Of a stretch of 64,000 bases of DNA, positions 37,153-42,273 are shown in pieces; position 1 is the stretch's first letter; the number at the start of each line of letters is the position of its first letter. The position numbers and the translations under genes are program-made. A model generated the notes under the pieces. That model did no database searches. It was not told the DNA's origin and saw nothing but the letters and a program-made list of their open reading frames with translations. This DNA is from Fusobacterium perfoetens ATCC 29250 (GTDB taxonomy: Bacteria > Fusobacteriota > Fusobacteriia > Fusobacteriales > Fusobacteriaceae). The stretch covers positions 1-64,000 of the forward strand of contig NZ_JHXW01000003.1 of assembly GCF_000622245.1 (NCBI RefSeq), written 5' to 3'.

Positions 37153-37413
37153 TTATAAAGCGTTAACTTTTGCAGCTAATCTAGCTTTTTTTCTAGATAC
37201 AGTATTTTTCTTTAAAACACCTTTAGTAACTGCTTTGTCGAATTCTTTGTATGCAACTGATAAAGCTTCTAAAGCAACTGCTTTGTCTTTACCTTCAACT
37301 GCTGCTAATACTTTTTTAGCTACGTTTTTAACTCTAGTCTTGATAGCTTGATTTCTAACTCTGTTTCTTTCGTTTAATTCTACTCTCTTTTTAGCTGATT
37401 TGTTGTTTGCCAT
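37153..37413 (-). CDS. rpsT: 30S ribosomal protein S20
   Basis: An 86-aa basic protein, MANNKSAKKRVELNERNRVRN, typical of S20, which binds 16S rRNA early in 30S assembly. The rest is Lys/Ala-rich helix ending in a KKARLAAKVNAL tail. AGGAGG lies 11 bases before the ATG, a rather long spacing. It stands alone between convergent and divergent neighbours. Confidence 0.98.
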   Translation of the reverse strand: MANNKSAKKRVELNERNRVRNQAIKTRVKNVAKKVLAAVEGKDKAVALEALSVAYKEFDKAVTKGVLKKNTVSRKKARLAAKVNAL

Positions 37414-37642: not shown

Positions 37643-40153
37643 ATGGATATAAATTTAAGGATAACTCCAGAAATTCAAGAGGAGATAAAAAATAATATTA
37701 TAGAAGCTGGTGGAAATGAAGTTTTTTTTAGAGGAATTTTAGATGAAGAAAAAAAAGTTTCTAAAATTTTTGTAATTGCTAGAGGAAATAAATATAGTGT
37801 ACCAGCTATTCTTAGTAGAATGAAAAGAGAAGAGATTATAATTCATAATCATCCTTCAGGATATATTTATCCGTCAGATAATGATATAGAAGTTGCTACA
37901 ACTTATGCTAATAGAATGAATGGTGGATTCTATATTATTAATAATGATGTTAATGATATTTATGTTGTTATAGAACCAGAAAATGAAGAATTAAAAACAA
38001 TTGATATAATTCCATATTTTGAAAAAAAAGGAATTATAGCTCAAAATTTTAAAGAATTTGAATATAGAGAAGAACAACTTTCTATGGCACAACATATTCA
38101 AGAGGGAATTAATGATGAAAAAAAGATTATAGTAGAAGCTGGGACAGGAACAGGAAAAACTTTGGCTTATTTAATTCCAAGTATAGAATGGGCTATTACA
38201 AATGAAAAAAGAGTTATAATAAGTACAAATACAATTAATTTACAAGAACAACTTTTAAAAAAAGATATTCCTATGTTACAAAAAATAATGGAGAAAAAAT
38301 TTAAGTATGCTCTTGTAAAAGGTAGAGGAAATTACTTATGCAATAGAAAATATTTTAATATAGAAAAAAAATTAAAGGATATGAAAGAAATTTCTCAAGA
38401 ACAAAAAAATCAAATTAAAGAGCTTTTAGTTTGGGGAAGAGAGACAAAAACAGGGGATAAATCAGAACTTAATTTTGAACCTGATTATAGTATTTGGGAA
38501 TTATTTCAAAGTGAAACTGACTTATGTTTTTCAAAATGTCCACATAGAGAAGAATGTTTTTTCTTTAAAGCTAGAGATGAAAAAAAGAGAGCTGATGTTT
38601 TAATAGCAAATCATCACATATTTTTTTCTGACTTGGCAATAAAAAAAGAAATTGGATTTAATAATGATTTTTCTATATTACCAGAATATGGAATGGTAGT
38701 TTTTGATGAAGCACATAATATAGAAAAAGTTGCTAGAGATTATTTTTCTTATGAAATATCAAGATATTCTTTTGTGAAAGCAATGAATAAAATCTTGAAT
38801 GTAAGTAAATTAAAAGATGAAAATGAAATAAATGAAATAAAGTTATTTGATGAAAATATAAAAAATATAAAAATAACAGGACAGATAGAAGAAATTATTT
38901 CAATTGCAAAGCTAGATATATCAGAAAATGGCAGTGAAATTGAAGAAATAATAAGAAAAGATTTTATTAATGACCATATAGAATTATTTCAATATGGAGT
39001 AAAATATTTTGAAAGAATAATAGAAATTTTTTCAAAAGGACAAAATGGAAATATTGCAATAAGAATAAAAAAAGATGATATTGCAATGAATAATTTTTCT
39101 AAATTAATGGAAGAAGTTAAACAGGATTTTGTTTTAAGTTTTTTTAGATATTTGAAAACAGCAAAAAAACTAAAAGATAGATTAGAAGAAGTAGATGAAG
39201 CAACTGGAAAAATAAATGAATTTATAAAATATATTGAAAGATTAGAAAACTTTTTTGAAAATTTCCAATTTATAAATAAATTTGAAGATGAAAGTTTTAT
39301 ATATTGGATAGAAGTAAATGAGAAAAAAAATAATTCAAAACTTGTGGCAACACCTTTAAAAGTTGATAATGAATTATCAGAAACTCTTTATGAAAATTTA
39401 AAGCAAATAGTTTTTACATCAGCAACATTATCAGTAGAAAATAATTTTGAATATTTTAAAAATTCTATAGGATTGCAAGAAGAAACTTATGAAAAAATAA
39501 TAAAATCACCTTTTGATTATGATAAACAAATGAAGGTATATATTCCTAAAGGATTACCAGACCCAAATGATAGAGATTTTATAGATTCTATTCAAGAGGT
39601 TCTAAAAAGTTTTATATTAAAAAATAAAGGAAGAACATTTGTACTATTTACTTCTTATAAGATGCTAAATTATGTTTATTATTCAATGAAAGATGATTTA
39701 GAAGAAAATGGAATAAATTTATTTATTCAAGGAATGTTTCCAAGAACAAAATTAGTTGATATTTTTAAAAAAAGTGAAGCTCCAGTACTTTTTGGAACAG
39801 ATTCTTTTTGGGAAGGTGTAGATGTAAAAGGAGACCAATTAAGTTCTGTAATAATTGTAAAATTACCATTTAAAGTACCTAGTGACCCTGTCACAGAAGC
39901 TATTATAGAAACTTTTGAACAGCAAGGAAAAAATTCATTTTTAGAATATCAAATTCCAGAATCAATTATAAAATTTAAACAAGGAATAGGAAGACTTATA
40001 AGAAGTAAAGAAGATAAAGGAATTATTGTTATTTTAGATAATAGAGTAATAACGAAATTTTATGGAAAATACTTTTTAGATAGTATTCCTACAAAGAATA
40101 TATCAAGAATAGATGTTTTTGATATTATTAAAGAAAATGGAGGAAAGAAATGA
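37643..40153 (+). CDS. JAMM/MPN domain fused to a DinG/XPD-type Fe-S helicase
   Basis: An 836-aa two-part protein. Residues 1-125 form a JAMM (RadC/Mov34-like) metal domain with every expected ligand: Glu26, His68, His70 (HNHPSG), Ser78 and Asp81. From about residue 140 it is a superfamily 2 helicase of the DinG/XPD type: a Q-motif-like YREEQLSMA, Walker A AGTGTGKT (166-173), the DEAH box at 355-358, four Cys (233, 295, 299, 305) placed to bind a 4Fe-4S cluster, and C-terminal motifs V/VI (GTDSFWEGVDVKGD and QGIGRLIRSKEDKG). DinG helicases unwind R-loops and forked DNA. Standard E. coli DinG lacks a JAMM domain, so this layout is unusual; the JAMM part could be a protease, isopeptidase or inactive binding module. 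It overlaps the next gene by 4 bases (ATGA). Confidence 0.9.
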   Translation: MDINLRITPEIQEEIKNNIIEAGGNEVFFRGILDEEKKVSKIFVIARGNKYSVPAILSRMKREEIIIHNHPSGYIYPSDNDIEVATTYANRMNGGFYIINNDVNDIYVVIEPENEELKTIDIIPYFEKKGIIAQNFKEFEYREEQLSMAQHIQEGINDEKKIIVEAGTGTGKTLAYLIPSIEWAITNEKRVIISTNTINLQEQLLKKDIPMLQKIMEKKFKYALVKGRGNYLCNRKYFNIEKKLKDMKEISQEQKNQIKELLVWGRETKTGDKSELNFEPDYSIWELFQSETDLCFSKCPHREECFFFKARDEKKRADVLIANHHIFFSDLAIKKEIGFNNDFSILPEYGMVVFDEAHNIEKVARDYFSYEISRYSFVKAMNKILNVSKLKDENEINEIKLFDENIKNIKITGQIEEIISIAKLDISENGSEIEEIIRKDFINDHIELFQYGVKYFERIIEIFSKGQNGNIAIRIKKDDIAMNNFSKLMEEVKQDFVLSFFRYLKTAKKLKDRLEEVDEATGKINEFIKYIERLENFFENFQFINKFEDESFIYWIEVNEKKNNSKLVATPLKVDNELSETLYENLKQIVFTSATLSVENNFEYFKNSIGLQEETYEKIIKSPFDYDKQMKVYIPKGLPDPNDRDFIDSIQEVLKSFILKNKGRTFVLFTSYKMLNYVYYSMKDDLEENGINLFIQGMFPRTKLVDIFKKSEAPVLFGTDSFWEGVDVKGDQLSSVIIVKLPFKVPSDPVTEAIIETFEQQGKNSFLEYQIPESIIKFKQGIGRLIRSKEDKGIIVILDNRVITKFYGKYFLDSIPTKNISRIDVFDIIKENGGKK

Positions 40154-42273
40154 AAAAAATAAATTTTTTAGGATTTCGTCTTCGATTTGATTTAGAAAAA
40201 GAAAGTAGAGATGAAATTCGGGAGTACACTAGTGTAGAACAGATGAAAGATAGAATATTATATCTTTTGATATTTTTAGTATTAGTTGTGGCTAGTGCAC
40301 AATTTAAACAAGTTTTAGAAAATAAAAATTATGTAAATGGAACAATTATTAAAGAAAATATATATGCTCCAAAAAGTATAAGATATAAAGATAATTTTAA
40401 GAGAGATGAAATCATAAAAAAAATTATAGATAGTTCAGCAAAAAAATATATTTATATTCCTGAGATAAGTAAAAATTATATTGAAGGAATAAGAGAATTT
40501 TATGATGAAATATTACTAGTTAAGAAAAATAAAAATAGAAAATTTAATTTTGAAAATTTTAGTCAAAAATATAAAATAAATATACCAGAAAATCTAGTTA
40601 ATGAATTAGAAGCTCAATCTGCAAGAAATATAGAGTCACAGAAAAAAAAATTAGAAATTATTTTAAATAAAATATATTATCAAGGAGTAAAGGATGGAGA
40701 AACTTTACTTTCTATTTTATCAGATTCAGAAGATAAAGAAAAATATTATGGAAATAAATTGAATAATTTAGAGTTAAAAATATTAGATAAATTTGTTGTA
40801 CCTAATTATATTTATGATGAAAAAAGTACAAAAGATGATATCAAAGAAAAAGTATCAAGTATTAAAGAGCAATATGTAGTTATTAAAGCAGGAGATTTAG
40901 TATTAAAAAAAGGAGATATACTAACACCAGAAAAACTAAAAATGTTAAATGCTATTGGGATACATTCTCCTATTGAAAATATAGCAAGAACTATTGTTAA
41001 TTTACTATATTTAACAGCAATTTCTACAATATTTTATAATACTTTAATAAGTAAATTTAAAAAAGAACTTCTTAATAAAAATATATATAGAGCTACATTT
41101 TTAATTTGTTCTCTTTTATTTTTAACATTTAGATTTAGTGATAGAGACTATTTATATTTAATTCCTTTTGAATCTGGATTCTTTCTTTTACAAATTCTTG
41201 TAAATTCTGTATATGCTTTTTATTTAGGAATTGGATTATTAATTTTTATGTTACCAATGATAAACTATGATTTAGTTTATACAACAGTTACATTATTAAC
41301 TATATTATTTGCAACAAAATTTTTACAAAGTGCAAAAACAAGAGTACAGTTTATAAATTTAGGAATACAATTATCAATAGTAAAAGTAGTAATATATTTT
41401 TCAATCTCATTCTTAACTATAGGGGTATCTCAAGAACTTATATTAGATTCTGCTAAAATTATTTTATCTGGAGTATTTTCTGGAGTATTAACTTTAGCTT
41501 TAGTACCTTATTTAGAAAGAACCTTTAATATATTATCATCTTTTAAGTTGTTAGAGTTAGGAGATTTATCAAACCCACTTTTGAAAAATTTATCAGTAAA
41601 AACTCCAGGAACTTTTTATCATTCAATGATGGTTGCTGCTGTATCAGAGGCTGCAGCAGAAGCTATAGGAGCTGACCCAATATTTACAAGGGTGGCAAGT
41701 TATTATCATGATATAGGAAAAATGAAAAGACCTAAGTTTTATGTAGAAAATCAAGAGGGTGGAGAAAATCCTCATGATAAAATTTCTCCATTTTTAAGTG
41801 CTCTAGTTATTCTTGCTCATCCAAAAGATGGATTTGAATTGGCTAAGAAATATCAAATTCCTAAGGAAATAAGAGACATAATGTTGGAGCATCATGGAAC
41901 AACTTTTTTAGCATATTTTTATAATAAAGCAAAAAGTTTGGATGAAAATGTAAGGGAAGATGATTTTAGATATGCTGGCCCTAAACCAAAAACAAAAGAA
42001 TCAGCTATAATTATGTTAGCTGACTCAATAGAAGCAGCAGTAAGAAGTATTGAAAATAAAACTTATAATAATATAGAAGAAATGATAAGGAAAATAGTTT
42101 TTAATAAAATAGATGATGGCCAATTAGTTGATGCTGATTTAACGTTTAAAGAAATAGACACTATAATAAAAGTTTTTACAAAAACAATTATGGGAATACA
42201 TCATGTAAGAATAAAATATCCTGATCAAGAAAAAGAAAGAGAAATTGAAGAAAAATTGGAGGAAAAATCATGA
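40150..42273 (+). CDS. pgpH: 7TM-HD family c-di-AMP phosphodiesterase (PgpH type)
   Basis: A 707-aa membrane protein. One N-terminal helix (about residues 37-55) leads to a roughly 220-residue extracytoplasmic 7TMR-HDED domain, then seven helices, then a cytoplasmic HD domain with HSMMVAAVSEAAAEA, the metal pair in SYYHDIGKMKRPKF and later LEHHGTTFLAYFYNKA. PgpH proteins of this layout hydrolyse c-di-AMP. That role is inferred from architecture; no diadenylate cyclase lies in the window. Neighbour order with ybeY directly downstream (ATGA overlap) is common in Firmicutes. Confidence 0.9.
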   Translation: MKKINFLGFRLRFDLEKESRDEIREYTSVEQMKDRILYLLIFLVLVVASAQFKQVLENKNYVNGTIIKENIYAPKSIRYKDNFKRDEIIKKIIDSSAKKYIYIPEISKNYIEGIREFYDEILLVKKNKNRKFNFENFSQKYKINIPENLVNELEAQSARNIESQKKKLEIILNKIYYQGVKDGETLLSILSDSEDKEKYYGNKLNNLELKILDKFVVPNYIYDEKSTKDDIKEKVSSIKEQYVVIKAGDLVLKKGDILTPEKLKMLNAIGIHSPIENIARTIVNLLYLTAISTIFYNTLISKFKKELLNKNIYRATFLICSLLFLTFRFSDRDYLYLIPFESGFFLLQILVNSVYAFYLGIGLLIFMLPMINYDLVYTTVTLLTILFATKFLQSAKTRVQFINLGIQLSIVKVVIYFSISFLTIGVSQELILDSAKIILSGVFSGVLTLALVPYLERTFNILSSFKLLELGDLSNPLLKNLSVKTPGTFYHSMMVAAVSEAAAEAIGADPIFTRVASYYHDIGKMKRPKFYVENQEGGENPHDKISPFLSALVILAHPKDGFELAKKYQIPKEIRDIMLEHHGTTFLAYFYNKAKSLDENVREDDFRYAGPKPKTKESAIIMLADSIEAAVRSIENKTYNNIEEMIRKIVFNKIDDGQLVDADLTFKEIDTIIKVFTKTIMGIHHVRIKYPDQEKEREIEEKLEEKS

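Follow-up and report, generated by a model that had tools for sequence, protein, structure and literature searches.

The DinG helicases include a named subgroup, "RadC-like DinG", presented in section 3.8 of Cheng 2025 (PMC11981726). In the accessible part of that paper, its members share E, H, H and D with the protein studied here and have a YoaA-like core and no HolC, experimental work on them is said to be nil, and a DALI search is reported to have pointed to metalloproteases and not to nucleases. Aravind's group had already drawn attention to RadC-DinG/RAD3 helicase fusions and, in the parts of these papers accessible to us, predicted a nuclease rather than a peptidase (PMC5512222, PMC3482391), on the basis of the fusion to nucleic-acid domains and of a position equivalent to that of nucleases (PMC5512222). 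The same authors argue that RadC is devoid of a ubiquitin-tail groove, and the biochemically characterised JAMM enzymes that they cite are peptidases (PMC5512222).

The protein described here is an instance of this architecture: it is of a described kind and not new, because the architecture was published in PMC11981726 (as far as its accessible text goes) and the fusions are cited in PMC5512222, so that the novelty implied by the first-pass annotation of this DNA has to be given up. Its gene lies in the window (the whole stretch of 64,000 nucleotides of Fusobacterium perfoetens ATCC 29250, contig NZ_JHXW01000003.1, that was analysed) and is a single uninterrupted ORF with an ATG start, closely preceded on its 5' side by AAAGGA. 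The host genome is fusobacterial (2.1 Mb, 99.97% complete), and this is the sole DinG/XPD-type helicase found in it at E <= 0.001; the closest named relative in another collection, from a Fusobacterium sp. MAG, is 81% identical. For the family as a whole we used an alignment of 43 non-redundant members (<85% identity) from many phyla, to which the 43/43 counts below refer. The features, in window coordinates, are as follows.

37153-37413, minus strand: rpsT (ribosomal protein S20), upstream divergent neighbour, read from the sequence; this neighbour is kept in L001, L002 and L008
37643-40153, plus strand: RadC-like DinG gene, 836 aa, coding for a RadC-type JAMM domain, a linker and a YoaA/DinG-type Fe-S SF2 helicase (ORF, Pfam, NCBIfam, alignment, full-length model)
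37643-37978, plus strand: RadC-type JAMM/MPN domain, residues 1-112, to the last beta strand (Pfam RadC; AF2 strands to residue 110; Foldseek RadC 2qlc)
37718-37720, plus strand: Glu26, which is predicted to serve as general base in the JAMM centre (invariant, 43/43; S or D in decayed clades)
37844-37852, plus strand: His68-Asn69-His70, with the predicted metal ligands, RadC-type HNHPSG motif (invariant, 43/43; lost in both decayed clades)
37874-37885, plus strand: Ser78 to Asp81 (SxxD), remainder of the JAMM motif (invariant, 43/43)
37979-38053, plus strand: linker preceding the helicase, residues 113-137; F126 and G130 are conserved (alignment)
38135-38158, plus strand: Walker A region EAGTGTGK, residues 165-172 (sequence and alignment)
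38339-38341, plus strand: Cys233, first Fe-S cysteine (117/121 rows)
38525-38557, plus strand: Cys295, Cys299 and Cys305, the other Fe-S cysteines (116, 119 and 120 of 121 rows)
38705-38716, plus strand: DEAH box, residues 355-358 (sequence and alignment)
39980-40003, plus strand: motif VI QGIGRLIR, residues 780-787 (sequence and alignment)
40150-42273, plus strand: PgpH-type 7TMR-HD gene, downstream neighbour, overlapping the RadC-like DinG stop by 4 bases

The helicase is complete, with Walker A, DEAH, motif VI and the four Fe-S cysteines all intact (in alignment A1, C299 and C305 are invariant, and conservation is 90% or more for C233 and C295). It matches DEAD_2 and Helicase_C_2; its top NCBIfam model is YoaA, at 616.8 bits and under the equivalog cut-off of 680. 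The full-length model (pLDDT 87.9, pTM 0.85) has as its best PDB match E. coli DinG with ssDNA (6fwr, E 1.9e-40). DinG and XPD helicases translocate on single-stranded DNA, and this one presumably does likewise; a 5'-to-3' polarity of this motor would follow from its membership of the DinG/XPD family.

For the N-terminal domain, Pfam RadC (PF04002) covers residues 25-89 and gives 28.1 bits with the domain alone, against a curated cut-off of 22.1, and the RadC NCBIfam models remain below theirs (25.5 against 180 and 20.7 against 133.85 bits). The AlphaFold2 model of residues 1-137 has a mean pLDDT of 89.6, and in a Foldseek search of the PDB it finds RadC (2qlc) first (E 2.5e-6), then BubCD, Rpn11, CSN5 and AMSH, all of them MPN folds. 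RadC is also nearest by alignment-profile search; such a profile is required to reach it, since a phmmer search of the PDB with just the domain returned noise and a weak RadC match only. The domain thus has the JAMM/MPN+ pattern E...HxHP...SxxD on an MPN fold, and E26, H68, N69, H70, P71, P77, S78 and D81 are invariant in the 43-member alignment. The JAMM motif is not a matter of chance because all 43 non-redundant homologues match Pfam RadC individually; the profile, the family-wide conservation and the fold likewise rule out a chance motif. In this respect the first-pass annotation was right about the MPN/JAMM fold of the RadC branch, the complete ligand set E26, H68, H70, S78 and D81, and the fusion, in one ORF, to a complete Fe-S SF2 helicase. 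From the sequence and the model, we infer that the domain would bind metal and act as a hydrolase.

In Fusobacteriota, this domain presents a natural decay series. At positions 26, 68, 70, 78 and 81, intact proteins have E-H-H-S-D, and the ligands have been lost, with the domain retained, in two separate fusobacterial clades (L091-L096), both of which keep the helicase: the residues are S-R-A-S-E, S-R-T-S-E and S-K-A-S-D in G016, G017 and G018, respectively, and D-R-Y-S-D in G073, G075 and G077. In the sister lineage of the first three (G037 and G038), the JAMM domain has been deleted. Among intact Fusobacteriota the mean identity is 0.59 for the domain against 0.56 for the helicase, whereas between the two ligand-less clades and their intact fusobacterial relatives it is 0.24 against 0.46 and 0.40 against 0.50, simple identity serving here as a proxy of rate and the 83 intact rows containing near-duplicates. 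Ligand loss, greater divergence of the domain and retention of the helicase together argue that the metal site is what selection preserves, and that the helicase can do without it. The domain therefore probably does a catalytic or metal-dependent job, is not needed by the helicase, and comes under constraint only as long as its metal centre remains whole. In both decayed clades the loss of the ligands is accompanied by that of eight further residues (I19, N25, V27, F28, R47, A55, N69 and G73), which we take to belong to one functional site; R47 may contact the substrate. Judged by their residues, the ligand-less proteins are natural inactive controls. The decay series and the set of co-lost residues are additions to the published account, neither being found in the accessible main text of PMC11981726. 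As separate observations, the gene of G077 is split into two ORFs, and that of G028 (G028:C1:943015-945451, L107) appears fragmented with several stops, by assembly error or as a pseudogene.

The architecture is close to universal in Fusobacteriota. In 98 fusobacterial genomes, the domain profile gives a strong match in 76 and a weak one in 6 (the ligand-less genomes above); the helicase occurs without the JAMM domain in 11 (G037, G038, G064, G082, G083 and G091-G096), and 5, mostly incomplete assemblies, have no helicase match (G001, G025, G046, G067 and G086). The first-pass annotation had named as its own refutation a long-known annotated architecture shared by all DinG proteins of these phyla; this largely applies, although some fusobacterial DinG do not have the domain. 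Going by record labels, intact homologues outside Fusobacteriota occur in Geobacter/Desulfuromonadales, Planctomycetota, Sumerlaeota, Auribacterota, Acidobacteria, Spirochaetota, Desulfurellaceae and Bacillota. The combination of JAMM domain and helicase is ancient. In a helicase-only tree (quick method, LG+G4, best 80 loci sampled), the JAMM-bearing rows and the domain-less fusobacterial relatives are split from plain YoaA/DinG by one starred branch (SH-aLRT 96), the fusobacterial protein shares a clade with proteobacterial members of RadC-like DinG, and the three domain states require 5 changes. The domain-less Leptotrichiaceae form a long branch outside the other Fusobacteriota in this quick tree, at odds with their family label, so that we take from it neither a root nor an exact count of losses. 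A profile search for stand-alone copies of the domain in the domain-less lineages found none at E <= 0.001 beyond weak RadC-like matches of about 30 bits, part of which were inspected.

As to genomic setting, the gene is likely on the same transcript as the overlapping pgpH-type gene, by their arrangement, which does not imply a functional tie; ybeY follows. Neighbourhood comparison finds pgpH and ybeY downstream in Fusobacteriota and not in the Geobacter relatives, so this context gives no hint of a substrate, and the same comparison revealed no partner gene conserved across phyla. A CRISPR-associated DinG or a defence island can be rejected on the neighbours (rpsT, pgpH and ybeY, not Csf) and on the Fe-S cysteines, which CasDinG of type IV CRISPR would not have; the PADLOC typeIV_DinG match is limited to the helicase core. 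As to SOS regulation, the sole LexA-type DNA-binding match of the host genome (G000:C6:52742-52897, L129) is a winged helix within a Fic-domain protein; the genome thus seems, from its sequence, to be without LexA, and we claim no LexA-controlled induction.

Two other sequences of this genome deserve mention. An HflX GTPase of about 595 aa, which lies beyond the window on the same contig (G000:C1:75104-76900; L085:1240-3036, L136), is extended at its N-terminus by about 150 aa that carry a JAMM-like signature (KEISIAID...IIHTHPNGNPKLSDVD). The extension falls under the Pfam cut-offs for RadC and Prok-JAB, occurs in 45 of the 98 fusobacterial genomes (in one of the 45 with a weak cross-match to its RadC-like DinG as well), and keeps E, HTHP, S and D in six aligned relatives; it is possible, on this signature, that HflX is here a JAMM domain fused to a ribosome-splitting GTPase, and a literature text search found no paper on HflX with a JAB domain. 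The second, a 118-codon ORF (G000:C25:30273-30416, L084), matches the RadC domain over its first half alone and has no HNH motif; it adjoins a Fic/Doc-like ORF and an integrase fragment, and is probably a truncated radC remnant.

What, then, may the domain do? We tentatively favour, with somewhat less than even confidence, the view that RadC-like DinG is a YoaA-type Fe-S helicase with a JAMM metal hydrolase in cis, for which nucleic acid would be the likeliest class of substrate. The motor would load on the single-stranded DNA of stalled forks or damaged sites, and the metal centre at its N-terminus, acting in cis with it, would process whatever the motor exposes or meets, by analogy with the nucleases of ExoDinG and EndoDinG in the same N-terminal position a nucleic acid end or strand. 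Nucleic acid is favoured because of this positional equivalence and of the RadC lineage. The nuclease-like reading agrees with the invariance of the ligands in 43 members of many phyla, with a conservation of the domain that equals that of the helicase among intact Fusobacteriota and falls below it between the ligand-less clades and intact relatives, with the co-loss of the eight residues, with RadC as the nearest fold, with the retention of the helicase after domain loss, and with the fusions and nuclease-equivalent position on which the published prediction was based (PMC5512222). However, the domain has an acidic composition (mean net charge -5.7 and pI 5.0 over 83 rows), and its well-conserved basic positions number just two, R47 and K/R16, which would be unusual in a domain that cuts DNA; both the characterised peptidases cited in PMC5512222 and the isopeptidases among the fold neighbours call for caution. 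Taken as a claim in itself, that the domain is a working metallohydrolase which acts on nucleic acid, in cis with a motor of the XPD family, is in our view rather unlikely.

That the domain is instead a metallopeptidase, which trims or removes a protein met by the helicase (a modifier, a DNA-bound protein or the tail of a partner) or cuts its own linker, is in our opinion unlikely, if a serious candidate. The JAMM set is full, Ser78 included, the Foldseek neighbours after RadC are isopeptidases, and the published DALI search, in the accessible text of PMC11981726, leans the same way. Against this, the closest branch is RadC, argued to have no ubiquitin-tail groove (PMC5512222); the invariant Asn69 stands between the two histidines, where the JAMM protease motif has Ser or Thr (H[ST]H; PMC300881); no partner gene conserved across phyla was found; and the E1-like ThiF genes of the host genome are no more than possible members of a conjugation system. 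We found no evidence pointing to a protein substrate, and the preference of the first-pass annotation for removal of a protein modifier is not sustained. The same acidity, with N25, N69, R47 and the almost invariant N101 as a conceivable ligand pocket and with several lineages keeping the helicase alone, would also suit a metal-bound module that senses or binds a nucleotide, small ligand or partner and gates the helicase without cutting; we consider this unlikely as well, in that the general base E26 and Ser78 are conserved and mere metal binding needs neither. Finally, an evolutionary leftover, a scaffold at most, is very improbable: decayed and deleted versions exist, but they are minority forms (6 and 11, against 76 strong matches, among 98 fusobacterial genomes), and the intact domain, with its invariant ligands, is constrained as strongly as the helicase. 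The first-pass annotation was right, for this lineage, to argue against a relic.

We know of no demonstrated JAMM nuclease, nor of an established peptidase activity of RadC. If the domain does prove to be a JAMM nuclease in cis with an XPD-family motor, it would be, to our knowledge, the first nuclease of the JAMM fold and an explanation of the RadC clade, and its repeated natural inactivation in Fusobacteriota would represent the loss of a specific repair step. The fusion couples a RadC-type centre to a motor with assayable activity, and in Fusobacteriota the same helicase occurs with an intact domain, with a ligand-less one and with none; these matched natural controls provide a clean genetic handle and make the question of the RadC domain (whether it cuts DNA, cuts protein or senses something) directly testable.

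In comparison with known systems, the fusobacterial protein is closest to RadC-like DinG as modelled for Desulfuromonas soudanensis in PMC11981726, whose accessible text gives the parts in the same order (an N-terminal RadC-like domain, then MD1 with FeS and Arch, then MD2), the same E/H/H/D set, similarity to YoaA and a genome without HolC; that main text, as far as accessible, does not name Fusobacteriota or report decayed or domain-less relatives. With RadC (PF04002; 2qlc), its best Foldseek and profile match, the domain shares the HNHPSG...PSxxD signature and the MPN fold, but it has neither the PRE/PRK-motif loop before HNH nor the LDHIII segment, where Asn101 replaces the His of RadC, and the N-terminal part of RadC is missing, a helicase being fused instead. 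The helicase core resembles that of E. coli YoaA and DinG, from which the JAMM domain is absent; E. coli YoaA works with HolC, a partnership that we exclude here since PF04364 has no match in the host genome (99.97% complete). ExoDinG (of the B. subtilis / S. aureus type) and EndoDinG, as described in the accessible literature, likewise carry an N-terminal catalytic domain on a DinG helicase, but theirs has an exonuclease or endonuclease fold, whereas that of the fusobacterial protein is JAMM.
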